Assembly: GCF_026340675.1 (NCBI RefSeq)
Contig: NZ_JAPEOX010000001.1
Coordinates: 3,596,001 to 3,660,000, forward strand
Direction: 5' to 3'
Length of the DNA: 64,000 bases
From: Streptomyces sp. NBC_01264
GTDB taxonomy: Bacteria > Actinomycetota > Actinomycetes > Streptomycetales > Streptomycetaceae
The notes under the pieces are model-generated. The model ran no database searches. It saw only the letters and a list, made by a program, of their open reading frames with translations, and was not told the origin of the DNA. Shown piece by piece: positions 49,088-61,176 of the stretch (the stretch's first letter is position 1; every line of letters begins with the position of its first letter). A program made the translations under genes and the position numbers.

Positions 49088-50494
49088 GTGGCCATCACAT
49101 CACGCGCGCCCGCGCCCGGCGGCGTCGTCGCGGCGTCCTCCGGGACGCCCGCGCCGCCGCCCGACGGGCTGCCCCGGCGCGGCACCGCCTGGGCCGAGGG
49201 CGTGGAGCGGCTGCGCGCGGCCGCCACCACCGAGCCCGGCCGGCTGCGGATCATCGGGGCGGCGCTGGCCGCACTGGTCCTGCTGTTCGGCGCGGTGGCC
49301 GTCTGGGAGATCTCCGGCCGGGTCGCCGCCGCCGACGACGTCGTGGGCCGCAGCCAGCCCCTGAGCGCCGACGCGGCGAGCATCTACCGCTCCCTCGCGG
49401 ACGCCGACACCGCCTCCTCCAGCGGTTTCCTCGCGGGCGGCCAGGAGCCCCGCGAGGTCCGCAGCCGGTACGAGAAGGACATAGCCAACGCGTCCCGGCT
49501 GCTGGTGAACGCGGCCGCCAGCACCACGGCCGGCGAGGACTCCCGCAAGCAGATCACCCTGCTGAGCGAGCAGCTCCCCCGCTACGCCGGACTGATCGAG
49601 CAGGCCCGGGCCACCAACAAGCAGGGCCTGCCGCTCGGCGGCGCCTACCTCCGGTACGCGAACGAGCAGATGAGCACCCAGCTGCTGCCCGCGGCGCAGC
49701 GGCTCTACGAGGCGGAGACCGGCCGGCTCTACACGGACTACGACGAGGCCCGCGCGCTGCCCCTGGCCTCGTTGGGGGCCGGTCTGCTCGCCCTCGTCGC
49801 CCTGGTCTGGGCCCAGCGGCGCAACTACCGCCGGACGAACCGCGTCCTCAATCACGGGCTCGTCGCCGCGACCACCGCCTCGCTGGTGCTGCTGCTGTGG
49901 CTGGCCGCGGGGCACACGGTCGCCCGGTCGGGGCTGAGCGAGGCCCGCACGGACGGTCAGGAGTCGCTCAAGGTGCTCAACGACGCGCGGATCGCCTCGC
50001 TCCAGGCGCGGGCCAACGAGAACCTGACGCTGGTCTCGCGCGGCGCCGTACTGGCCGAGGACAAGAAGTCCGACAAGTACGACGTGGACTACTCGAACAA
50101 CATGAAGGACCTCGACGCGGGCCTGGCGACGGCGGCGAAGCTGGCCGACGACAAGGCCGGCCGGGATCCCGTGGCCCGCGCCGCGGAGGGCGTGCGGCAG
50201 TGGAAGGGGCTGCACGCGGCGGCCCGGCAGACCGACCTGACGGGCGATTACCAGGGCGCCGTCGGGCAGGTCATCGGCGACAAGGACCATCCGAAGCCCA
50301 CGGGGAGCGCCTTCGACACGGTGGACGCCTCGCTGGAGGAGGCCGTGGCCCACGAGCAGCGTGAGTTCACCGGCGCGGCGCGGGACGGGCTCGGGGCGCT
50401 CGACGGTTTGGTGACGGGTACGGCGGCCCTGGCGGTCGTCGGCGCGGTGGCCGCCCTGCTCGGCATCGGGCGCAGGCTTTCGGAGTACAGGTGA
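49088..50494 (+). CDS. glnX: GlnX-like four-helix membrane sensor protein
   Basis: 468 aa from GTG at 49088, preceded by GGGGGAGG. Membrane segments at about 54-74, 222-240, 255-277 and 439-461. Two extracytoplasmic domains lie between helices 1-2 (about 140 residues, helical) and 3-4 (about 165 residues). This is the topology I recall for mycobacterial GlnX. It is followed by a GlnH-like gene and, one gene later, pknG, matching glnX-glnH-pknG of mycobacteria, where the three sense aspartate/glutamate. Its own sequence similarity could not be tested. Confidence 0.7.
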   Translation: MAITSRAPAPGGVVAASSGTPAPPPDGLPRRGTAWAEGVERLRAAATTEPGRLRIIGAALAALVLLFGAVAVWEISGRVAAADDVVGRSQPLSADAASIYRSLADADTASSSGFLAGGQEPREVRSRYEKDIANASRLLVNAAASTTAGEDSRKQITLLSEQLPRYAGLIEQARATNKQGLPLGGAYLRYANEQMSTQLLPAAQRLYEAETGRLYTDYDEARALPLASLGAGLLALVALVWAQRRNYRRTNRVLNHGLVAATTASLVLLLWLAAGHTVARSGLSEARTDGQESLKVLNDARIASLQARANENLTLVSRGAVLAEDKKSDKYDVDYSNNMKDLDAGLATAAKLADDKAGRDPVARAAEGVRQWKGLHAAARQTDLTGDYQGAVGQVIGDKDHPKPTGSAFDTVDASLEEAVAHEQREFTGAARDGLGALDGLVTGTAALAVVGAVAALLGIGRRLSEYR

Positions 50495-51582
50495 GAGCGA
50501 TGCCGGGACGGGTGAAGCACGCGGTCATGGGCTCCGAGGGCTCGGGGGGCACCGCGTCCCCCACGGTGGCCTCCGAGGAGGTACGGGAGGTACGCGGCCT
50601 GCGACGCCTCACCGGCCGGCTGCGCGGCTGGGGCGGGGTCGGTGCGATGGCCGCGGCCTGTGCGCTGACGGCCGCCGCCGTGCTGCTGCCGCTGGCCCAG
50701 GCGGCCCCGGGCGGCCCGGGTATCTCCGCACCGGTGCGCGGGCCGGCCAGGACGGCCGTCGCTCCGCAGGCACCCGCGGACACCTGCGAGAACCCCGAGG
50801 CGAGCCTGCGCCCCAACGGCCTGGACGGCTCGTCCATCGAGCGGATCCGCGCCGCGGGCCACCTCGTCGCGGGCGTGGACCAGAACAGCTTCAAATGGGG
50901 CTACCGCAACCCGGCCGGGGAGCTCGACGGTTTCGACATCGCCCTGGTCCAGGCCATAGCGAAGGACATATTCGGCACCGACGGCAAGGTCATCTACCGG
51001 GCCATCCCCACCAGTCAGCGCATCCCCGCGCTCAAGGACGGCACCGTCGACATCGTCGTGCGCACGATGACCGTCAACTGCAAGCGGCTGGAGGAGGTCG
51101 CCTTCTCGACGGCGTACTTCGAGGCCGGGCAGCAGGTGCTGGCCCCCAAGGACTCGAAGATCACCGGCTACGACGCCTCGCTGAAGGGCCGCCGCATCTG
51201 CACGGCGGCCGGCTCGACGGCGGAGGCGGCCCTGGCCACCCAGTCCTACGGCGCCGTCCCGGTCAGCGTGCCCAACCAGCTGGACTGCCTGGTCCGGCTG
51301 CAGTTGGGCGAGGTGGACGGCATCATCACCGACAACGCCCTCGCCGCGGGCCAGGCCGCGCAGGACCCGTCGATCCGGCTGGTCGGCTCCCCGTTCACCA
51401 AGGAGTTCTACGGGGTGGCCATGAACAAGGACGCCGGTGACCTGGTGCGCCGGGTCAACAAGGTGCTGGAGGACTACCGCGCGGGCGGCGACGCCAGCCC
51501 CTGGATGGCGGCCTACAAGCACCACCTGGAACCCGTGCTGCCCGGTGTGGCCGGCCCGCCCGTTCCCAAGTACCGGGACTGA
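50491..51582 (+). CDS. glnH: GlnH-like glutamate/aspartate-binding protein, solute-binding family 3
   Basis: 363 aa. GTG at 50491 overlaps the glnX stop by four bases (GTGA). Cytoplasmic tail of about 45 residues, one hydrophobic segment (about 50-72) ending QAAPGG. No lipobox Cys follows, so it is membrane-anchored or secreted. Family 3 fold: HLVAGVDQNSFKWGYRNPAGELDGFDIALVQAI, VDIVVRTMTVNCKRLEEVAFS and EVDGIITDNALAAG. No ABC permease is encoded nearby, which supports a sensing rather than a transport role. Confidence 0.8.
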   Translation: MRAMPGRVKHAVMGSEGSGGTASPTVASEEVREVRGLRRLTGRLRGWGGVGAMAAACALTAAAVLLPLAQAAPGGPGISAPVRGPARTAVAPQAPADTCENPEASLRPNGLDGSSIERIRAAGHLVAGVDQNSFKWGYRNPAGELDGFDIALVQAIAKDIFGTDGKVIYRAIPTSQRIPALKDGTVDIVVRTMTVNCKRLEEVAFSTAYFEAGQQVLAPKDSKITGYDASLKGRRICTAAGSTAEAALATQSYGAVPVSVPNQLDCLVRLQLGEVDGIITDNALAAGQAAQDPSIRLVGSPFTKEFYGVAMNKDAGDLVRRVNKVLEDYRAGGDASPWMAAYKHHLEPVLPGVAGPPVPKYRD

Positions 51583-51587
51583 GGCCG

Positions 51588-53015
51588 GTGGCGGATTCTG
51601 AGCCCGATGTCACGAGACCGGAGGCGGAATCGGTGGAGTCCCATCCTTGGGGATCGCAGCCTCGGGGCGCACAGCCCCCGGGAGCGCAGCCGGCGGTGAT
51701 GGACCGGGACGGCGTGGACCGTGCGCTGGCCCGGCTGGGCGCGGAGCACGAGGCCGTCGAGACCTCGCTGCTCGCGCTCCAGGACCACTCCGGCCGGCGG
51801 CTCCTGGAGGGCGCCGGGCTGACCGGGGTCACCAAGGAGCGGTGGGCCGGGGCCGACGCGGCCATCACCCGGCTGTGGCGGTACTTCGACGCCTACAGCG
51901 GGGCGCTGGGCGCCGCCCGGGAGATCCGCGAGCGGCGCCGCTGGCCGAGCCGCGAGGACCTGGTCGAGCTGACGGACCGGCTGCGCGGGCCCGGGGTGCT
52001 GATCTCCGGGGCCGCGGTGGAGGGGGCCCCGCTCGCGGAGCGGTTCTCCCTCGCCGAGCTGGTGTCGCGCATGAACGAGCTGTACGCGAGCTCCCTGGAC
52101 GTGGTGGTCGCCGCGGACTCGGTCTGGTCGGCGCTGCCCGCCCGGATCGACCTGCTCTCCGCCGAACTGCACCGCACCCGTACCCTCGCCCACTCGGTGG
52201 GGGTCCGGCCGGGGGAACACCCCTCGGGGGACGACCTGGAGGCCATCACGGCCGAGCTGGCGGACCTGCGGGCCCGGGTGATCGAGGACCCGCTGGCGTT
52301 CTGGTTCTCCGTGGCCGGGAGCTCCGCCCCGGGCGGCGGCCGTCCGGACACCGGGCGCTACGACCGGGCCGCGCTCGCGCTGGAGGACGTACGCCGGGAG
52401 GTCGAGGCGGTACTGGCCGTCCGGCAGGACGCCGAGCAGCGGCTGATCGGGCTGCGGGACCTGCTCTCGCGGGCCGACCGGACCCTGGCGGAGGCCCGGG
52501 TGGCCCGCGGCGAGGTGCTAGCGAAGATCGCGGCGTCCGAGGTGCCCGCGGTGAGCGGCCCGCCGACGGCGCTGCAGGAGCAGCTCTCGGCGGCGGCCGA
52601 GTACCGGCGCCGGGCCCAGTGGCACCGGCTGTCGCCGCTGCTGGAGTCGTTGGAGGAACGGGCCGAGGAGGAACTGCTGAGGGCCCGCGAATCGTTGACC
52701 GCGGTGACGGCTCCGCTGGCCGTGCGGGCGGAACTGCGCGGCCGGCTCGACGCCTACAAGGCGAAGGTGGCGCGGCTCGGCATGGCGGAGGATCCGCTGC
52801 TGATGGAGCGGTACGACACCGCCCGGCGGATGCTGTGGAGCGCGCCCTGCGATCTGCGGGCCGCCGAGCAGGCGGTGCTCCGCTACCAGTGGGCGACGGC
52901 CGAGGCGCTGCCGGCGCCTCAGCAGGACCGGCAGAGCCCGCAGGACCAGCAGGACCGGCAGGGGCACCGACCGGTGCACGAGTGGCCCGACGGGCCGAGG
53001 GAGGGGGACGCGTGA
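51588..53015 (+). CDS. coiled-coil protein of the pknG operon, unknown function
   Basis: 475 aa from GTG at 51588, five bases after the glnH stop. Predominantly helical, Glu/Arg/Ala/Leu-rich with long heptad-like stretches (about 40-420), no signal peptide or membrane helix. A Gln/Asp/Arg tail (PQQDRQSPQDQQDRQ) ends the protein. Inserted between glnH and pknG; mycobacteria lack it at this place as far as I recall. A scaffold between the GlnX cytoplasmic face and PknG is a guess from position. Confidence 0.7.
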   Translation: MADSEPDVTRPEAESVESHPWGSQPRGAQPPGAQPAVMDRDGVDRALARLGAEHEAVETSLLALQDHSGRRLLEGAGLTGVTKERWAGADAAITRLWRYFDAYSGALGAAREIRERRRWPSREDLVELTDRLRGPGVLISGAAVEGAPLAERFSLAELVSRMNELYASSLDVVVAADSVWSALPARIDLLSAELHRTRTLAHSVGVRPGEHPSGDDLEAITAELADLRARVIEDPLAFWFSVAGSSAPGGGRPDTGRYDRAALALEDVRREVEAVLAVRQDAEQRLIGLRDLLSRADRTLAEARVARGEVLAKIAASEVPAVSGPPTALQEQLSAAAEYRRRAQWHRLSPLLESLEERAEEELLRARESLTAVTAPLAVRAELRGRLDAYKAKVARLGMAEDPLLMERYDTARRMLWSAPCDLRAAEQAVLRYQWATAEALPAPQQDRQSPQDQQDRQGHRPVHEWPDGPREGDA

Positions 53016-55768
53016 GTCTGATCGGAACGGCGTGCATGCGCCCCGGCTGCCCGGGGACGTACGAGGACATGGGCGGCGGCGAGGTCTACTGCGACACCTG
53101 CGGGCTGGCGCCGGCAGGCGCCGTCGCGGCGGGCGCCGAGGAGCTGGTGTCGGTACCGACGGCGATGACGAGCGCGGCCCGCCACGGGGACTCGCAGGGC
53201 TCGCACGGGTCACAGGGGTCCCAGGGCTCGCACGGGTCCGGGCGGTCCTCCTCGTCCTCCTCCTCGCGGGCCTCCCGGTCTTCGCGGTCCTCGCGTTCTT
53301 CGTCGTCCCGCCGCTCCGTGTCGGGCCGGCTCTCGCGCGCGCTCTCGGGAGCCGCGTCCACCCGGTCGGTGTCGGTGCGCAGTTCGGGTTCGGCCGCCTC
53401 GGCGTCGGGCCGCAGCCGACTGGGCGCCGGGCTGGTCAACGTACCGGAGGTGCCCCGTCCGGATCCTTCGGCGGCGGTGCTGGAGAACCCGGAGGTCCCG
53501 GAGCGCAAGCGGTTCTGCTCGCGCTCCGACTGCGGAGCGCCCGTGGGGCGCGCCCGCGGCGAGCGGCCGGGGCGGACGGAAGGTTTCTGTACCAAGTGCG
53601 GCCACCCGTACTCCTTCGTGCCCAAGCTGCGCGGGGGCGACCTCGTCCACGGCCAGTACGAGGTCGCGGGCTGCCTCGCGCACGGCGGGCTGGGCTGGGT
53701 CTACCTCGCGGTGGACCGGGCCGTGTCGGACCGGTGGGTGGTGCTCAAGGGCCTGCTGGACACCGGGGACCAGGACGCGATGGCGGCCGCGATCTCGGAG
53801 CGGCGCTTCCTCGCGGAGATCGAGCACTCCAACATCGTGCGGATCTACAACTTCGTGGAGCACCTGGACCAGCGGACCGGTTCGCTGGACGGGTACATCG
53901 TCATGGAGTACGTGGGCGGCAAATCGCTCAAGGAGATCGCCAACGAGCGGCGCAGGCCCGACGGCCGCCGCGATCCGCTGCCGGTGGAACAGGCGTGCGC
54001 CTACGGCATCGAGGCGCTGGAGGCGCTCGGCCACCTGCACTCCAGGAACCTCCTGTACTGCGACTTCAAGGTGGACAACGCCATCCAGCAGGCCGACCAG
54101 CTGAAGCTGATCGACATGGGCGCGGTCCGGCGGATGGACGACGAGGAGTCGGCCATCTACGGCACCGTGGGCTACCAGGCGCCGGAAGTGGCGGAGCTCG
54201 GCCCGTCGGTCGCCTCCGACCTGTACACGGTGGCGCGCACGCTGGCCGTGCTGACCTTCGACTTCCAGGGCTACACGAACGTGTTCGTGGACTCCCTGCC
54301 GGACCCTCAGCACATCGAGGTGTTCGGGCGGTACGAGTCCTTCTACCGGCTGCTGGTACGGGCCACCGACCCGGATCCGGGACGGCGGTTCGCGTCCGCG
54401 CAGGAGATGGCGGACCAGCTGACGGGAGTGCTGCGCGAGGTCGTCGCGCTCCAGACGGGCCGCCCGAGGCCGCAGGTCTCCACGCTCTTCGGGCCGGAGC
54501 TGCGGGTTCCGGACGACCGGCTGTTCACCGACGACCGGTCGGGCGGGCACGTGTCCCGGCTGGGCGAGCGGCCCGCGAAGCGGTGGCGGGCGGGCCGGGG
54601 CCGGGCTCCGGCCGAAGTCCCCGGACCGGCGCCGGATCCGGTTCCGGCGCTCACCGCCGCCGCGTCCGCGGGGGCTCCCGCCGCTCCGTCGGCCGCGCCG
54701 ATCACGGGGTACGGCACCACCGGGCTGGTCACCACGGCGACCCACCGGGCCGCCGGCCCCGGCGTGCCGGCCCCGCGCCGGGCACCGGCGGCCGCGCCGC
54801 CGCCGCCCGTCGGGATCACCGCCTCGCGGCGGCCGGAGCTGTCCACGCTGGACACCCGCGAGGCCGCGCTGGCGCTGCCCGTGCCGCTGGTCGACGCCGG
54901 GGACCCCAACGCAGGCTTCCTGGCGGGTCTGCTGGCCTCCGCGCCGGCCGACCTGCTGGCCGCGCTGGGTTCGGCGCCGGCCGAATCCGCGGAGCTGCGG
55001 CTGCGGGAGCTGCGGGCCCGGCTCGAACTGGGCGGCGCCGACGCGCCGCTCGTCGCCGACGCGCTGACCCGGCTGGAGGCACGGCACCCCGACGACTGGC
55101 GCGTGGTGTGGGCCCGGGGCATCTCCTCGCTGGCCGTCGGGGAGGACGAGACGGCGGCGCTGTCCTTCGACGCCGTCTACGACGCCTTCCCGGGCGAGCC
55201 GGCGCCGAAGCTGGCGCTGGGGCTGTGCGCGGAGGTGCTGGGGCAGTTGGACAACGCCGCCGAGTACTACCGCCTGGTGTGGGCCACGGACCCCGGCTTC
55301 GTCGGCGCGGCGTTCGGGCTGGCCCGGGTGCAGCTGGCCACCGGGGACCGGGACGGAGCCGTGCGCACGCTGGAGTCCGTACCGGAGGTGTCGATCCACC
55401 ACACCGCCGCGCGGGTGGCCGCCGTACGGGCACGCCTGCGCGACCGGTCGCCCCAGGAAGCCCTGCTGCCCGATCTGACGGCGGCCGCGGCGCAGGTGGA
55501 GGCCCTGGGACGGTTCGGCCTGGACTCGGTGCGCCACGAGCGGCTCAGGGCGGAAGTTCTGGGCTCGGCGCTGGACTGGGTACTGTCGGGCAGCCGGGGT
55601 TCCGACCCCGGCCGTACCTCGCTGCTCGGCTGCCAACTGGACGAGCGGGGACTGCGCTTCGGCCTGGAGCGCTCGTTCCGCGTGCTGGCACGGCTGGCGC
55701 AGCGGGGCGAGGAGAGGATCGAACTGGTGGAGCGGGCAAACCGTTTCCGTCCCCGGACGTGGGTGTGA
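53012..55768 (+). CDS. pknG: serine/threonine protein kinase PknG
   Basis: 918 aa from GTG at 53012, overlapping the coiled-coil gene by four bases. Order: zinc ribbon Cys8, 13, 27, 30; Ser/Gly/Arg-rich linker about 60-135 coded by repetitive DNA; rubredoxin-like metal site Cys169, 174, 193, 196; kinase domain about 215-450; Pro/Ala linker to about 605; TPR-type helices to the end. Kinase features: Gly-rich loop 222-228, Lys246, catalytic Asp351 in YCDFKVDN with no preceding Arg (non-RD), and IDMGAV in place of DFG, as in mycobacterial PknG (IDLGAV). Soluble. In relatives PknG phosphorylates FHA proteins (GarA/OdhI). The extra N-terminal ribbon is not in the mycobacterial protein as I recall. 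Confidence 0.92.
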   Translation: MSLIGTACMRPGCPGTYEDMGGGEVYCDTCGLAPAGAVAAGAEELVSVPTAMTSAARHGDSQGSHGSQGSQGSHGSGRSSSSSSSRASRSSRSSRSSSSRRSVSGRLSRALSGAASTRSVSVRSSGSAASASGRSRLGAGLVNVPEVPRPDPSAAVLENPEVPERKRFCSRSDCGAPVGRARGERPGRTEGFCTKCGHPYSFVPKLRGGDLVHGQYEVAGCLAHGGLGWVYLAVDRAVSDRWVVLKGLLDTGDQDAMAAAISERRFLAEIEHSNIVRIYNFVEHLDQRTGSLDGYIVMEYVGGKSLKEIANERRRPDGRRDPLPVEQACAYGIEALEALGHLHSRNLLYCDFKVDNAIQQADQLKLIDMGAVRRMDDEESAIYGTVGYQAPEVAELGPSVASDLYTVARTLAVLTFDFQGYTNVFVDSLPDPQHIEVFGRYESFYRLLVRATDPDPGRRFASAQEMADQLTGVLREVVALQTGRPRPQVSTLFGPELRVPDDRLFTDDRSGGHVSRLGERPAKRWRAGRGRAPAEVPGPAPDPVPALTAAASAGAPAAPSAAPITGYGTTGLVTTATHRAAGPGVPAPRRAPAAAPPPPVGITASRRPELSTLDTREAALALPVPLVDAGDPNAGFLAGLLASAPADLLAALGSAPAESAELRLRELRARLELGGADAPLVADALTRLEARHPDDWRVVWARGISSLAVGEDETAALSFDAVYDAFPGEPAPKLALGLCAEVLGQLDNAAEYYRLVWATDPGFVGAAFGLARVQLATGDRDGAVRTLESVPEVSIHHTAARVAAVRARLRDRSPQEALLPDLTAAAAQVEALGRFGLDSVRHERLRAEVLGSALDWVLSGSRGSDPGRTSLLGCQLDERGLRFGLERSFRVLARLAQRGEERIELVERANRFRPRTWV

Positions 55769-55771
55769 TTG

Positions 55772-57727
55772 ATGTCGATGCATCGGCTGTCGGGCTGCCC
55801 CAGCTGCGCGGAACCGCTGGAGGAGGGTGACCGTTTCTGCGGGCTCTGCGGCTACGCCCTCACGACCCCGGACCGGACGGCGGCGCACACACCGCCGGCC
55901 GCTCCCACGAGCGCGGCGTACGCGGCCCCGGTCGCCCCGGCCGGGGCGGCTCCGGCGGCACCGGCGCCCCCGGTCCCGGCGGCGCCAGCCCCGCCCGCGC
56001 CGCCCGCCCCGGAGCCGGCCGGCTCCGCTCACGCGGGCGCCACCGGTCAGGCCACCCCGCCGGCCGGGATCCCGGCCACGCGCGGGCTCCCGTCGTCCGG
56101 CGAGGACTTCGCGCCCCGGCACTCCGGCGGCCACCCCGAACCGGCGGCCCCCGGGTACGCCGGCGAGGCCGCGCCCGGCTGGGGCAGCGTCTCCACCGCC
56201 GCCCCCACCCTGGTGTCGGGCCCCACCGGCTGGTCCGACGCCGGGCACGGCACGCCCCGGACCTCCGAGAGCCCGTACGCCACGCCCCCTCAGGGCCCGC
56301 ACCCCGCGGAAGCCACCTCCTACGGCGCGGGCGCGCAGGGCGCGGGTCCCACGGGCGCGGCCTCTTACGGCAGGGCCGACGGTTCCGACGCGTACGGCAC
56401 CCCGGGCCCCGGAGAGCACGCCCTCCCCTACGAAGCCACCCCCTACGACCCCGCCCCGCAGGGACAGCACCCCGGCGGCCCGGCCCCGTACGGCGGCCCC
56501 CCGTCGCCGGAGTACGCCCCCGGCGGCGAAGCCCCGTACGGCGGCCCCGCTCCGCAGGGGCAGCACGGCGGCGAGACCCCGTACGGCGGCCCGACCGGCG
56601 GGCACGGCGCCGGCCACGGCCCCCAGGAGCCGGGCCCGGGGCACGAAGCCCCGTACGGCGGTCCCGCCGAGCAGGGCCACGCCCCCGGCGGCGAGGTCCC
56701 GTACGTCAGTGATCCCTCAGGTCAGGGCCCCGCCCCGCAGGGGGACCCCGGGGGGAAGACCTGTGTGGCCTGCCGCGCCGGGCGGGTGGACACCGACGGG
56801 TACTGCGAACACTGCGGGCACGCGCAGCCCCGGGAGCGGGACCACCTCGAGGAGGAGCTCGGGAGCGTCGCCGCCGTCAGCGACCGCGGGCTGCGCCACC
56901 ACCGCAACGAGGACTCCTTCGCCGTCGCGGCCACCGCGCTGCCGGACGGCTCCGCCGCCACCGTGGCCATCGTCTGCGACGGCGTCTCCTCCGCCAGCCG
57001 CCCCGACGAGGCCTCCGCGGCCGCCGCCGGAGCCGCCAACGAGGCGCTGCTCGACGCCCTCCCCCGCGGCGCCCACCCCCAGGAGGCCATGCACGAGGCG
57101 ATCCTGGCCGCCGCCGCCGCGGTGAACGCCCTCGCACCCGAGGTGCCGAGCGCCCAGAACGCCCCCGCCTGCACCCTGGTCGGCGCCGTGGTCAGCGGTG
57201 GCCTGCTGACCATCGGCTGGGTCGGCGACAGCCGCGCGTACTGGGTCCCCGACGACCGCGCCGCCCTGCCCCGTCGCCTGACCGAGGACGATTCCTGGGC
57301 CGCCCAGATGGTCGCGGCGGGCCTGATGGGCGAGGCCGAGGCCTACGCCGACGTCCGCGCACACGCCATCACCGGCTGGCTCGGGGCCGACGCGTACGAC
57401 CTGGAGCCGCACACCGCCACCTTCAAGCCCGACCACGACGGCGTGGTCGTGGTCTGCACCGACGGGCTGTGGAACTACGCCGAGTCCGCGGGCGACATGG
57501 CCCGGGTCCTGCCGCAGGACGCCGCCGTCCGGCCCCTGCACAGCGCGCAGGTCCTGGTGGGCCACGCCCTCGACGGTGGCGGGCACGACAACGTGACCGT
57601 GGCCATCGTCCCCTTCGCGGCGACCCCGCCGGTGGCGCAGCACCCGTCGGCGCCGCAGGCCCCGCCGATGCCGCCGACCCCGCCCACGAGCCCCGCGGGC
57701 CCCGCCGGCCCGCAGGCCCAGGCCTGA
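55772..57727 (+). CDS. PP2C-family protein phosphatase with two zinc ribbons
   Basis: 651 aa from ATG at 55772, three bases after pknG; an ATG at 55778 is an alternative. Zinc ribbon 1 has Cys9, 12, 23, 26. A disordered Pro/Gly/Ala region (about 30-325) contains repeats of APYGGP. Zinc ribbon 2 has Cys331, 334, 345, 348. The PP2C domain begins near 365: SDRGLRHHRNEDSF with the metal-binding Glu-Asp about 380, VCDGVSS about 403, VGDSRAYW, and CTDGLWNYAE and GGHDNVTVAIV at the end. Likely reverses PknG phosphorylation. A short Pro/Ala tail follows. Confidence 0.9.
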   Translation: MSMHRLSGCPSCAEPLEEGDRFCGLCGYALTTPDRTAAHTPPAAPTSAAYAAPVAPAGAAPAAPAPPVPAAPAPPAPPAPEPAGSAHAGATGQATPPAGIPATRGLPSSGEDFAPRHSGGHPEPAAPGYAGEAAPGWGSVSTAAPTLVSGPTGWSDAGHGTPRTSESPYATPPQGPHPAEATSYGAGAQGAGPTGAASYGRADGSDAYGTPGPGEHALPYEATPYDPAPQGQHPGGPAPYGGPPSPEYAPGGEAPYGGPAPQGQHGGETPYGGPTGGHGAGHGPQEPGPGHEAPYGGPAEQGHAPGGEVPYVSDPSGQGPAPQGDPGGKTCVACRAGRVDTDGYCEHCGHAQPRERDHLEEELGSVAAVSDRGLRHHRNEDSFAVAATALPDGSAATVAIVCDGVSSASRPDEASAAAAGAANEALLDALPRGAHPQEAMHEAILAAAAAVNALAPEVPSAQNAPACTLVGAVVSGGLLTIGWVGDSRAYWVPDDRAALPRRLTEDDSWAAQMVAAGLMGEAEAYADVRAHAITGWLGADAYDLEPHTATFKPDHDGVVVVCTDGLWNYAESAGDMARVLPQDAAVRPLHSAQVLVGHALDGGGHDNVTVAIVPFAATPPVAQHPSAPQAPPMPPTPPTSPAGPAGPQAQA

Positions 57728-57753
57728 TCCCCGTCCCCCAGGAGGAGCGACCG

Positions 57754-59079
57754 ATGGCGAACTTCGCCAAGCCGAGCGCCCCGCGCTTCAGCGTGGAGGT
57801 GTACCAGAACGAGTTCCTCGCCGAGGGCGCCCGCGACGTCCACGCCATCGTCACGGTCACCTCCACCGGCGGAGCCACGGCCACCCGGACGTCCGTCGCC
57901 CCGGGCGGCGCCGCCGTGGTGATCATGGTGGACTGCTCCGGTTCCATGGAGTACCCGCCCGACAAGATGCGCGGGGCCCGCGAAGCGACGGCCGCCGCCG
58001 TCGACACCCTCCGCGACGGCACCGCCTTCGCCGTGATCGCCGGCACCCACGTGGCCAAGGAGGTCTTCCCCCGCCGGGGCCTCCTCGCCGTCGCGGACGC
58101 GACCACCCGCGCCCAGGCCAAGGAGGCCCTGCGCGGCCTCTCCTCCGGCGGCGGCACCGCCATCGGCACCTGGCTGCGGCTGGCCGACGGACTGCTGCGC
58201 GGATCCACCGCGGCGATCCGCCACGGGATCCTGCTCACCGACGGCCGCAACGAGCACGAGGACCCGGCCGTGCTGCGCGCCACGCTCGACGCCTGCGCGG
58301 GCCGTTTCACCTGTGACGCCCGCGGCGTGGGGACCGACTGGGAGGTCAAGGAGGTCACCGGCATCGCGAACGCGCTGCTCGGCACGGCCGACATCGTGGC
58401 CGACCCGGCCCGGCTGAGCGCCGACTTCACGCACATGATGGAGGAGGTCATGGGCAAGGAAGTGGCGGACGTCTCGCTGCGCCTGTGGACCCCGGTCGGC
58501 ACGGAGGTCATGTACGTCAAGCAGGTCGCCCCCGCCGTGCAGGACCTGACCGGCCGCCGTACGGAGGCGTCCCCGCGCGCCGGGGACTACCCGACGGGTT
58601 CCTGGGGCGACGAGTCCCGCGAGTACCACGTGTGCGTACGGGTCCCGGGCGCGGCCGTCGGCCAGGAGATGCTGGCCGCCCGCGCCGCCCTCGTCATGCC
58701 GGGAGCCCCCGGCGAGGACCCGGCCGTGCTCGCCCAGGGCCTGGTCAGGGCCGTCTGGACGGACGATCTCGCCGCGTCCACCGCCATCAACCCCCAGGTG
58801 GCCCACTACACCGGCCAGGCCGAGCTCGCACAGGCCATCCAGCAGGGCCTGGAGGCCCGCAAACTGGGGGACGTCGGTGGTGCCACGGCCAAGCTCGGCC
58901 GGGCCGTGCAGCTGGCGAGTTCCTCGGGCAACGCCGACACCGCCAAGCTGCTGGCCAAGGTGGTGGATGTCGTCGATGCGGCGGCGGGTACTGTGCGACT
59001 GAAGGCAAAGGTCGCCGACGCGGACGAGATGACACTAGAAACGCGTTCCACTCAAACCGTTCGAGTGCGAAAATCTTGA
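57754..59079 (+). CDS. VWA-domain protein of the pknG operon
   Basis: 441 aa from ATG at 57754, with AGGAGGAG six bases upstream. The VWA domain occupies about 50-230 with an intact MIDAS motif Asp60-C-Ser62-G-Ser64; LLTDGRNEHED carries the later Asp. The C-terminal part includes helical and beta segments (about 340-430). No signal peptide, so it acts in the cytoplasm. VWA proteins assemble complexes; with a kinase, phosphatase and FHA reader nearby, a scaffold or signalling role is likely. Similar VWA partners occur in other phospho-signalling clusters. Confidence 0.88.
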   Translation: MANFAKPSAPRFSVEVYQNEFLAEGARDVHAIVTVTSTGGATATRTSVAPGGAAVVIMVDCSGSMEYPPDKMRGAREATAAAVDTLRDGTAFAVIAGTHVAKEVFPRRGLLAVADATTRAQAKEALRGLSSGGGTAIGTWLRLADGLLRGSTAAIRHGILLTDGRNEHEDPAVLRATLDACAGRFTCDARGVGTDWEVKEVTGIANALLGTADIVADPARLSADFTHMMEEVMGKEVADVSLRLWTPVGTEVMYVKQVAPAVQDLTGRRTEASPRAGDYPTGSWGDESREYHVCVRVPGAAVGQEMLAARAALVMPGAPGEDPAVLAQGLVRAVWTDDLAASTAINPQVAHYTGQAELAQAIQQGLEARKLGDVGGATAKLGRAVQLASSSGNADTAKLLAKVVDVVDAAAGTVRLKAKVADADEMTLETRSTQTVRVRKS

Positions 59080-59169
59080 CGTGAAGCGTGACGCTCTGAT
59101 CGTGACCTGATCAGACGCGAAGAAGAAGAACCTGCCTCTATGACGCAGGAAGAAGGAGGAAGCGCCGCG

Positions 59170-60225
59170 ATGCCGACCTGCCCGAACGGGCACCAGTCCG
59201 CCTCCGACGACTGGTGCGAGGTCTGCGGCCACCGCATGGCTGCCCCTACGGGCACCCCCGCGGCGCCCTCCTACGGCTACGGCTTCCCTCCCACCGGCGA
59301 GCCGACCGCCCAGGCCGAGCTCTGCCCGCAGTGCCGGACCCCGCGCGAGGCCATGGCCCCGTTCTGCGAGGAGTGCCGGTACAACTTCCTGACCCGTACG
59401 GCGACCTCGTACACCCCGGTCTCCCCGGACCTGCCCCCGCCGCCGCCGCCGTCCCCGGGCCCGCCCGCGGCACCGCCGGCGTACTCGCAGGACCACTTCG
59501 ACTACCAGGGCTCGCGGCCCTCCCGGGTCAACCGCCCGGCCGAGCCGCTGCAGCGCGAGGACGACTGGATGCTGCCGCCCCCGGCGCGCCAGGACTTCCA
59601 GCAGCCCCCGTACCAGCAGCAGCCGCCGCCCCCGCAGCAGCACCAGCAGCCGGGCCAGGGCCAGCAGCAGGGGCACCAGCCTCCGCCGCCGTACCAGCAG
59701 CAGCCGTCCCGGACCGGGCAGTACCAGCCGCCGCAGCCGCCGCAGCACCAGCAGCACCACCAGCAGCAGGCGCCGCAGGCGCACCCGCCCTACCAGCAGC
59801 AGCCCTACCAGCAGCCGGGCAGGTCCTGGAGCGCGACCATCGGCCCGGACCGCTCGTACTTCATGGCGATGATGCACCGCAGCGGCCCCGAGGCGGCCGG
59901 GCTGGACCTGCCCGCGTACTCCCCCGAGCAGCACCTCCCGCTCTCCGGTGGCCAGATCACCATCGGCCGGCGCCGCGCCTCGACGGGCGAGTCCCCCGAC
60001 ATCGACCTGTCGGTGCCCCCGGAGGACCCGGGCGTCTCGCACCAGCACGCGGTGCTCGTCCAGCAGCCCGACGGCAGCTGGGCCGTGGTGGACCAGAACT
60101 CCACCAACGGCACCACGATCAACGGCGGCGAGGAGTCGATCCAGCCGTACGTGCCGGTTCCGCTCGCCGACGGGGACCGCGTCCACGTCGGTGCCTGGAC
60201 CACGATCACCGTCCGGCGCGGCTGA
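59170..60225 (+). CDS. FHA-domain protein with two zinc ribbons (candidate PknG substrate/reader)
   Basis: 351 aa. I chose ATG 59170, ten bases after AAGGAGGA; the upstream ATG at 59140 lacks a site. First ribbon: Cys4, His8, Cys16, Cys19. Second: Cys52, 55, 66, 69. A Gln/Pro-rich disordered linker (about 100-215) with PYQQQ repeats follows. The FHA domain is at about 250-350: ITIGRRRAS, DPGVSHQHAVL, QNSTNGTTIN, the phosphothreonine-binding residues. It resembles GarA/OdhI in having a single C-terminal FHA, but lacks their short phosphorylatable ETT motif in the visible N-terminus. Terminator follows. Confidence 0.88.
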   Translation: MPTCPNGHQSASDDWCEVCGHRMAAPTGTPAAPSYGYGFPPTGEPTAQAELCPQCRTPREAMAPFCEECRYNFLTRTATSYTPVSPDLPPPPPPSPGPPAAPPAYSQDHFDYQGSRPSRVNRPAEPLQREDDWMLPPPARQDFQQPPYQQQPPPPQQHQQPGQGQQQGHQPPPPYQQQPSRTGQYQPPQPPQHQQHHQQQAPQAHPPYQQQPYQQPGRSWSATIGPDRSYFMAMMHRSGPEAAGLDLPAYSPEQHLPLSGGQITIGRRRASTGESPDIDLSVPPEDPGVSHQHAVLVQQPDGSWAVVDQNSTNGTTINGGEESIQPYVPVPLADGDRVHVGAWTTITVRRG

Positions 60226-60251
60226 GCCCGCGCGGCCACCGGTCCCGAACG

Positions 60252-60288
60252 CGGCGAAGCCCTCCGGTATCACCGGAGGGCTTCGCCG
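60252..60288. terminator. terminator of the pknG operon, bidirectional
   Basis: Perfect 16-bp stem (60252-60267 with 60273-60288, five-base loop TATCA), then TTTG. It ends the seven-gene unit and serves the converging gene at 60301. Confidence 0.9.
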
Positions 60289-60300
60289 TTTGACGGATCC

Positions 60301-61176
60301 TCAACCGCCGACCAGCGGGTCCCCGGCCCCGCGCCGGCGCCGCACGCTCACCACCGCGGCGGCGGCCAGCAGCAGGACGAACAGACCGGCCAGGGCGAGC
60401 GGGAGCAGCGTCCCGGGGTGGAGGGCGAGGAACAGGACCGGCAGGCCCGCGAGCAGCACAGCGGGCGCGGTGCGCAGCCCGGCGAACGCCCGGCGTCCGG
60501 CCAGCAGCAGGCCGGCGGCCAGCGTGACGGCGAAGCGCAGCTGGGTGAAGGGGTACACCAGCGGGACCAGCACCACCGCACTCGTCAGCACCAGCGTCCA
60601 CGCCATCACCGCGAGCACGCCGGCCCGGGTGCGGACACGGGGAGCGGGCCTCAGGTCCGGCGGGCACGCCACGGCCACCAGGGCCAGGACGAGCATGGGC
60701 CCGTCGGTGAGCGCCGAGAACCCGATGGAGCCGATGCCCATCCGGACCGCGCCGAGCGCGAACACCACGACGGTTCCCGCCAGCACGGTCCAGCTGCCCG
60801 CCGCCCAGCGTCCGGCCAGCGCGAGGAACACTCCGAACACCATGACGAGGTAGGCCGCGACCATCCCCGCGAAGCCCGGACCGATCTCGTCCAAGTCCGC
60901 GATGAAGAAGACGTTGCGCATCACTCCGGCCCAGCTCGACGCGGCGGCCCCGACGGCGACCAGGGCGAACGGTGCCAGCGCCGCCAGGAGCCGGCCGGGG
61001 CGTCCCGCGGAGCCCAGGCCCAGCCGCATGCGCAGGGCGTGTCCGGCCACATCCGCGCCCTCCCGCACCCGGGCGGGGACCGCCGCTCCGCGCGTCGCCT
61101 CGTGGTACGCGTCGGCGATCTCGTCGCCGAACTCCCGCCGGTAGGCGGCGGGATACAGCCTCAGCAGCGCGCTCAC
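60301..61176 (-). CDS. membrane protein paired with PadR regulator
   Basis: 291 aa from ATG at 61176, overlapping the padR stop (ATGA). The N-terminal motif LYPAAYRREFGDEI is a short segment common in PadR-associated membrane proteins, in front of about seven to eight hydrophobic helices. No catalytic motif seen. PadR genes in actinobacteria are often followed by permease-type partners, and this fits that pattern. Confidence 0.8.
   Translation of the reverse strand: MSALLRLYPAAYRREFGDEIADAYHEATRGAAVPARVREGADVAGHALRMRLGLGSAGRPGRLLAALAPFALVAVGAAASSWAGVMRNVFFIADLDEIGPGFAGMVAAYLVMVFGVFLALAGRWAAGSWTVLAGTVVVFALGAVRMGIGSIGFSALTDGPMLVLALVAVACPPDLRPAPRVRTRAGVLAVMAWTLVLTSAVVLVPLVYPFTQLRFAVTLAAGLLLAGRRAFAGLRTAPAVLLAGLPVLFLALHPGTLLPLALAGLFVLLLAAAAVVSVRRRRGAGDPLVGG

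Follow-up and report, generated by a model that had tools for sequence, protein, structure and literature searches.

Most knowledge of PknG comes from mycobacteria and Corynebacterium, where it belongs to a three-gene system acting on GarA. Here we describe a seven-gene operon around pknG in Streptomyces sp. NBC_01264, located in a window of 64,000 nucleotides (the whole stretch of DNA that was analysed; contig NZ_JAPEOX010000001.1, positions 3,596,001 to 3,660,000). Operon linkage of glnX, glnH and pknG is conserved across Actinobacteria, as stated in passages of PMC6069109 and PMC8546545. The Streptomyces operon shares GlnX, GlnH and the rubredoxin, kinase and TPR domains of PknG with the GlnX-GlnH-PknG-GarA/OdhI pathway of mycobacteria and Corynebacterium glutamicum, but it adds genes for a helical protein, a PP2C phosphatase, a VWA protein and an FHA protein. 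It also differs in that its PknG carries an extra zinc ribbon, its FHA protein is not GarA, and its GlnH lacks the ligand-contacting Trp and, as judged by eye, the lipobox. The ArnA/ArnB-ArnC-PP2A switch of Sulfolobus (PMC12852372) likewise comprises a protein with VWA domain, beta-sandwich and helical bundle, a zinc ribbon-FHA protein, a kinase with a TPR-like part, a phosphatase and a role in nutrient signalling; the Streptomyces module differs from it in the phosphatase family, in having an extracytoplasmic sensor and in the absence of an archaellum. The third relative, the threonine phosphorylation pathway of type VI secretion (PpkA, PppA, Fha1), shares the sensor, kinase, PP2C and FHA components. 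There the VWA domain is fused to the kinase, whereas the Streptomyces operon has no secretion genes, a PknG-type kinase and VWA as a separate protein. We propose that the operon specifies a module for nutrient signalling coupled to the membrane, with a VWA hub and an ArnA/ArnB-like VWA-FHA switch, a reading for and against which the evidence seems to us about balanced.

The seven genes lie on the forward strand, as do all features of the operon given below, with start codons picked by eye: glnX (49088-50494; 468 residues, a membrane signal transducer with four hydrophobic segments), glnH (50491-51582; 363 residues, an extracytoplasmic amino-acid-binding protein), a helical or coiled-coil gene (51588-53015; 475 residues), pknG (53012-55768; a Ser/Thr kinase of 918 residues), the PP2C phosphatase gene (55772-57727; 651 residues), the VWA gene (57754-59079; 441 residues) and the FHA gene (59170-60225; 351 residues). 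A preliminary description of this DNA had listed these genes with six junctions of a 4-nt overlap, 5 bases, a 4-nt overlap, 3, 26 and 90 bases, and every spacing agrees exactly. Its gene identities, including GlnX-GlnH-PknG, were confirmed by Pfam and NCBIfam. Catalytic or metal-site residues are intact in the kinase, the phosphatase and the VWA protein, and the functional set is conserved. PknG contains PF16919 (rubredoxin), PF00069 (kinase) and PF16918 (PknG_TPR) and aligns to the solved PknG 2pzi (E 3e-165), with which its kinase residues K246, D351, K353, N356 and D368 (hand-counted) line up. The phosphatase matches PF13672 (PP2C_2) and NF033484, its PDB matches include PstP (1txo/2cm1), and its metal residues, read by eye, are kept with respect to a solved phosphatase. 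The helical protein belongs to no Pfam or NCBIfam family and gave no convincing PDB match; its model is predicted to be nearly all helix (predicted local distance difference test score, pLDDT, 92), and its gene is kept adjoining pknG among the loci compared.

The likeness to the archaeal switch comes from the VWA protein and its neighbour. The protein matches VWA_2, VWA_3 and VWA_3_C in Pfam, and its model consists of a VWA domain with a metal ion-dependent adhesion site (MIDAS), a beta-sandwich and a C-terminal helical part, ArnB-like in fold. The MIDAS residues D60, S62, S64, T135 and D163 are invariant in 21 rows, and Thr/Ser residues appear conserved in the helical part. Both hallmarks of the ArnB architecture, the inserted beta-sandwich and the C-terminal helical bundle, are found in the predicted structure. 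An ArnA-like partner is found as well: the next gene encodes an FHA protein with a zinc ribbon, and its second ribbon shares the CxxC-x10-CxxC spacing with the ArnA zinc finger (Cys positions from PMC12852372). The ArnB-like fold was already known from the Catenulispora acidiphila VWA protein (PDB 4fx5), which we count among the closest known systems. In three other loci (L121, L114 and L140), tblastn recovers only a partial VWA protein, matching in the beta-sandwich or helical part but missing the VWA domain; the domain may have been lost or have diverged, or the frame may be broken.

Conservation of the operon was followed first in 80 Streptomyces-type loci fetched by PknG similarity (78/80 named Streptomyces), which together with the window give 81 rows and are, by choice, its closest relatives. 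All seven genes are present in 67 of the 81 loci. The other 14 are incomplete, each ending at a contig end at most 678 bases from the last gene found (the contig of L086 is cut on both sides). The linkage of the seven genes in Streptomyces-type loci is more than chance. The ATGA/GTGA overlap of glnX and glnH is kept in 75/80 loci, that of the helical gene and pknG in 49/81, and glnX and glnH adjoin pknG in 80/81, the exception being contig-cut. Sixty further PknG neighbourhoods, some of them cut short, were chosen to cover other families and second copies. Here the partners lie on the same strand as pknG in 39 (GlnX), 39 (GlnH), 22 (helical gene), 29 (PP2C), 37 (VWA) and 30 loci (FHA), and all seven do so in 16 of the 60, namely in eight f15 loci, seven f16 loci and one f4 locus. 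Most f15 loci are ordered helical-PknG-PP2C-VWA-FHA-GlnX-GlnH; f16 and other families mostly follow the order of the window. Three f16 loci (L163-L165) have two glnX-glnH pairs flanking the pknG-VWA-FHA set on opposite strands. In a phylum sample of 296 genomes, a VWA orthologue (E <= 1e-40) was found in ten. Nine of these belong to the same genus as the window; the tenth, G457, comes from a different class and has the full seven-gene set, its glnX-glnH pair lying on the opposite strand, and the extra ribbon in its PknG.

These neighbourhoods also bear on the idea of a local assembly switch like that of type VI secretion, in which the phosphorylated FHA protein nucleates a membrane complex. 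The logic of periplasmic sensor, kinase (PpkA), PP2C (PppA) and FHA is the same, according to passages of PMC10482370, and Pseudomonas aeruginosa PpkA has a VWA domain (part of PMC1262709); moreover, the operon FHA protein weakly matches the TagH model (1e-7) and the phosphatase matches solved PppA (6e-4). However, Pfam and NCBIfam show no secretion component among the seven proteins or in the next gene. When 793 coding-like frames from these 60 neighbourhoods were clustered, no group across families exceeded six frames, the seven families and their kin aside, and these small groups resemble, by eye, common enzymes or transporters, so that no machine is apparently co-encoded. We consider such an assembly switch quite improbable.

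Co-occurrence of the VWA protein with PknG is seen in a class sample of 296 genomes, scored with PknG_TPR at its cut-off and with the VWA orthologue at E <= 1e-60. PknG_TPR occurs in 108 genomes (110 at E <= 0.001) and the VWA orthologue in 70, all of them among the 108; it was found in none of the 188 genomes without PknG (Fisher 2e-40, uncorrected for kinship). Within the window's genus, 29 of 31 sampled genomes have the VWA protein, one as a fragment; two lack both pknG and VWA, and G134 has fragments of both. Second PknG copies were also found in Streptomyces-family genomes, and six of these ten loci (L145, L149-L151, L169 and L170) have a diverged VWA protein adjoining PknG. None of the other five partners was found within the stretch fetched around the second copies, and glnX, glnH, PP2C and FHA are absent from that stretch in these six.

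The main alternative is that the module acts as in mycobacteria, with PknG phosphorylating GarA to control the tricarboxylic acid (TCA) cycle and glutamate use, and with PP2C, VWA and FHA as accessory or fine-tuning components. The preliminary description had named the operon FHA protein as reader beside the known action of PknG on FHA proteins that control the TCA cycle. The operon protein is not that regulator: as GarA/OdhI it is rejected (23.5 bits with NF041660, whose cut-off is 200), and its sequence contains no ETTS motif. The GarA/OdhI orthologue of this genome (L172) is encoded elsewhere (G000:C1:2076371-2076724), is the top match of that model in the genome with 196 bits, just below the cut-off, and consists of an N-terminal zinc ribbon, an ASETTSTIS stretch and an FHA domain. 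The presence of this orthologue with ETTS favours the GarA route, as does the phosphorylation of Saccharopolyspora erythraea GarA in its ETTS motif, reported in a passage of PMC12321487. Nevertheless, GarA is present in 288/296 class genomes (E <= 1e-30) and PknG in only 108, which means that GarA is independent of PknG; in families other than the mycobacteria-like one it is VWA, not GarA, that tracks PknG. GarA was further read in a set of 39 proteins (40 fetched minus two unread, plus that of the window genome). By a crude pattern test, the [ED]TT motif occurs in 17 of the 39 and in only three of the nine from VWA-bearing genomes. Overall, we think it unlikely that the module acts in this way.

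Zinc ribbons are a recurrent element of the module. PknG has an extra N-terminal ribbon (53033-53101; Cys 8, 13, 27 and 30), kept in 99-100% of the 81 Streptomyces-type rows, followed by a Ser-rich tail, the rubredoxin cluster (53516-53599; Cys 169, 174, 193 and 196, invariant across 81 rows), the kinase and the TPR domain; T50 in the N-tail is conserved. The phosphatase carries two ribbons and a long low-complexity linker (ribbon 1 at 55796-55849, CxxC-x10-CxxC, PF13240; ribbon 2 at 56762-56815, Cys 331, 334, 345 and 348, invariant in 76 rows). The FHA protein (PF00498 and PF12773) has two N-terminal ribbons, the first recognised by eye (59179-59226, CPNGH...CxxC) and the second formed by Cys 52, 55, 66 and 69 (59323-59376; 93-94% of 67 rows), then a low-complexity linker and the FHA domain (59956-60192; PF00498, residues 263-341, with G-R, S..H and N..NG seen by eye). 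Following the second ribbon, a T(N/R)TATSYTP motif is conserved in Streptomyces-type rows and is not kept in the FHA proteins of the other families listed. These six Cys clusters, two each in PknG, PP2C and FHA, would also suit a sensor of redox or metal state built from ribbons and rubredoxin, with amino acids contributing little or nothing as input, and the rubredoxin modulates the activity of recombinant PknG (passage in PMC6069109). Against such a sensor speak the adjacency of glnX and glnH to pknG in 80 of the 81 Streptomyces-type loci and their position on the pknG strand in 39 of the 60 others, second copies included; we hold it to be very improbable.

The extra ribbon precedes the rubredoxin in most families other than f4, the family taken as mycobacteria from neighbour genes recognised by eye, and was not found in the nine mycobacteria-like PknGs without VWA. 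For 59 of the 69 rows of a PknG tree, both states were scored (of the other ten, eight have no ribbon call and two have the VWA state unset): 41 have ribbon and VWA (nine of these are the window plus eight selected loci of Streptomyces type), one has the ribbon without VWA (L122), 17 have neither, and none has VWA without the ribbon. This scoring applied a looser pattern and range to all rows, and four states were set by hand: VWA as present, though partial, in L114, VWA left unset in L115 and L127, whose regions are cut short, and the ribbon left unset in L140, which has a short 5' end. Six independent pairs were obtained on the tree, five in the same direction and one undecided (p 0.06).

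The same tree, a quick one rooted at the midpoint, places the mycobacteria-like clade among seven-gene families. Of the ten f4 loci, seven contain only glnX-glnH-pknG, two pknG alone and one (L144) all seven genes; L144 branches as sister to the remaining nine f4 rows, all ten group together with 99% support in the Shimodaira-Hasegawa-like approximate likelihood ratio test (SH-aLRT), and one trio row of family f41 joins the clade at 92. Because an ancestral trio would require the same four genes to have been gained separately, the mycobacteria-like trio is probably a reduced form of the larger set. The preliminary description had called the Streptomyces operon extended; the direction is probably the reverse, the larger set being common in the other families sampled. 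The set of L144 (G259:C144:1-13800) stands in a genome with another strong PknG match (G259:C24) and may have been kept from an ancestor or acquired by transfer. It is tempting to go one step further and propose that the original actinobacterial output of PknG was a VWA-FHA phospho-switch of the ArnA/ArnB type (Sec23/24-core) rather than GarA, with the extra PknG ribbon docking on the VWA hub, and that mycobacteria lost switch and ribbon and kept sensor and kinase. We regard this extension as possible, though doubtful.

Several observations weigh against a VWA hub of the ArnB kind and against docking by ribbons. The link between the VWA protein and ArnB is at the level of the modelled fold: VWA_3_C has no match in 14 control genomes, Sulfolobus acidocaldarius included, and ArnB (8s05) ranks fifth by sequence profile, through the VWA domain only. 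Inter-alpha-inhibitor heavy chain also matches the model (333 residues, 6.3 Å), and according to the ArnB paper most proteins with this architecture do not take part in multi-phosphorylation switches. VWA is missing in 38 of the 108 PknG genomes (26/27 f4 genomes and 12 others). The association of ribbon and VWA, strong in count, rests on few independent events. An earlier pass with a stricter pattern and range, covering 133 rows (81 Streptomyces-type and 52 others; eight others unscored), found the ribbon in 81/81 Streptomyces-type rows, with VWA seen in 75, and gave a less clean picture in the 52 others: both in 28, neither in 17, VWA without ribbon in three (L112, L140 and L169) and ribbon without VWA in four (L114, L115, L122 and L127). 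The ribbons of L112 and L169 were later seen by eye, and half a ribbon is visible by eye in L132, scored as neither. Most PP2C and FHA proteins are also ribbon-bearing, and short zinc ribbons are common. Since GarA ribbons occur regardless of VWA (26/39 GarAs, with or without PknG and VWA; 0/10 in f4), ribbons as such are no evidence of VWA docking and no general signature of it.

Regarding the input, GlnX matches the GlnX subfamily model NF058618 (E 7e-144), with hydropathy peaks near residues 55, 223, 257 and 442, and GlnH is a family-3 solute-binding protein (SBP_bac_3, Pfam) whose top hit in the PDB is GlnH 6h2t/6h1u (E 8e-54). The ligand contacts of mycobacterial GlnH, as given in part of PMC6069109, are R147, K161, T162, S164, R169, W232 and D250; they map to R177, R191, T192, T194, R199, Q263 and D281 in the window, that is R, R, T, T, R, Q and D, and the same seven letters occur in 77/80 Streptomyces-type rows. 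As to binding of Asp/Glu, the Arg and Thr residues of the pocket are kept in the window, but Gln replaces W232, which contacts the ligand side chain, in all 80 rows. Acidic ligands are still plausible because 5eyf, named glutamate-binding, aligns Tyr at this position; Asp/Glu binding is plausible and not assured. By eye, no lipobox is evident in GlnH, and the Cys of the signal segment lies inside the hydrophobic stretch; C. glutamicum GlnH is a lipoprotein, as mentioned in part of PMC9769921.

According to the proposed VWA-hub module, GlnH would bind an amino acid outside the membrane, probably though not certainly an acidic one, and GlnX would relay the signal across it. PknG, held via its TPR domain, would then phosphorylate threonines on module proteins, most likely those of the VWA protein (in its C-terminal helical part or its tail), of PknG's own N-tail (T50), or of both. 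We hypothesize that the FHA protein docks loosely by its zinc ribbons and then tightly by FHA-phosphothreonine binding, and that the ribbon-bearing phosphatase reverses the phosphorylation. GarA may be a second substrate. The roles of sensor, relay and kinase are likely from homology, and those of the phosphatase as eraser and the FHA protein as reader are deduced from their intact domains and from gene linkage. For the VWA protein as hub of an ArnA/ArnB-like switch, which fold, partner layout and co-occurrence suggest, we see about an even chance. The wording of a self-contained circuit in the preliminary description is not supported in that form.

As to transcript ends, a scan of the locus gave no sigma70-type promoter. 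At the site of the single terminator proposed for the operon, a terminator-like hairpin (60251-60289) with a perfect 18-bp stem and a 3-base loop lies 25 bases 3' of the operon end, and the 75-nt stretch folds at -48.6 kcal/mol (z -5.5); the hairpin is followed by TTT only and was not called by a T-run-based terminator scan. The hairpin sits between the ends of the FHA gene and a convergent gene on the reverse strand (60301-61176), whose product of 291 residues has several hydrophobic segments and matches nothing in Pfam or NCBIfam.

The actinobacterial glnX-glnH-pknG linkage and the ArnB-like fold of 4fx5 were already known; the joining of the two was not found in print. A search of the open-licence PMC literature found no publication joining PknG with the VWA/PP2C/FHA set. 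The term von Willebrand does not occur in the available parts of PMC9769921 and PMC8546545, nor do VWA, von Willebrand or phosphatase in that of PMC6069109, and the portion of PMC1262709 seen mentions VWA solely in PpkA.

If the more far-reaching proposal on the original PknG output is correct, a nutrient-sensing unit of TPR-kinase, phosphatase, zinc-ribbon-FHA and ArnB-like proteins would be common to bacteria and archaea. If the trio is a reduced form, there would be a more general PknG circuit, so far unstudied, in which a VWA hub and an FHA reader are joined by a dedicated phosphatase. The module offers specific, testable PknG substrates and suggests a function for the solved structure 4fx5. 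It would tie the amino-acid sensing of antibiotic producers to a type of switch whose mechanism was established in archaea.

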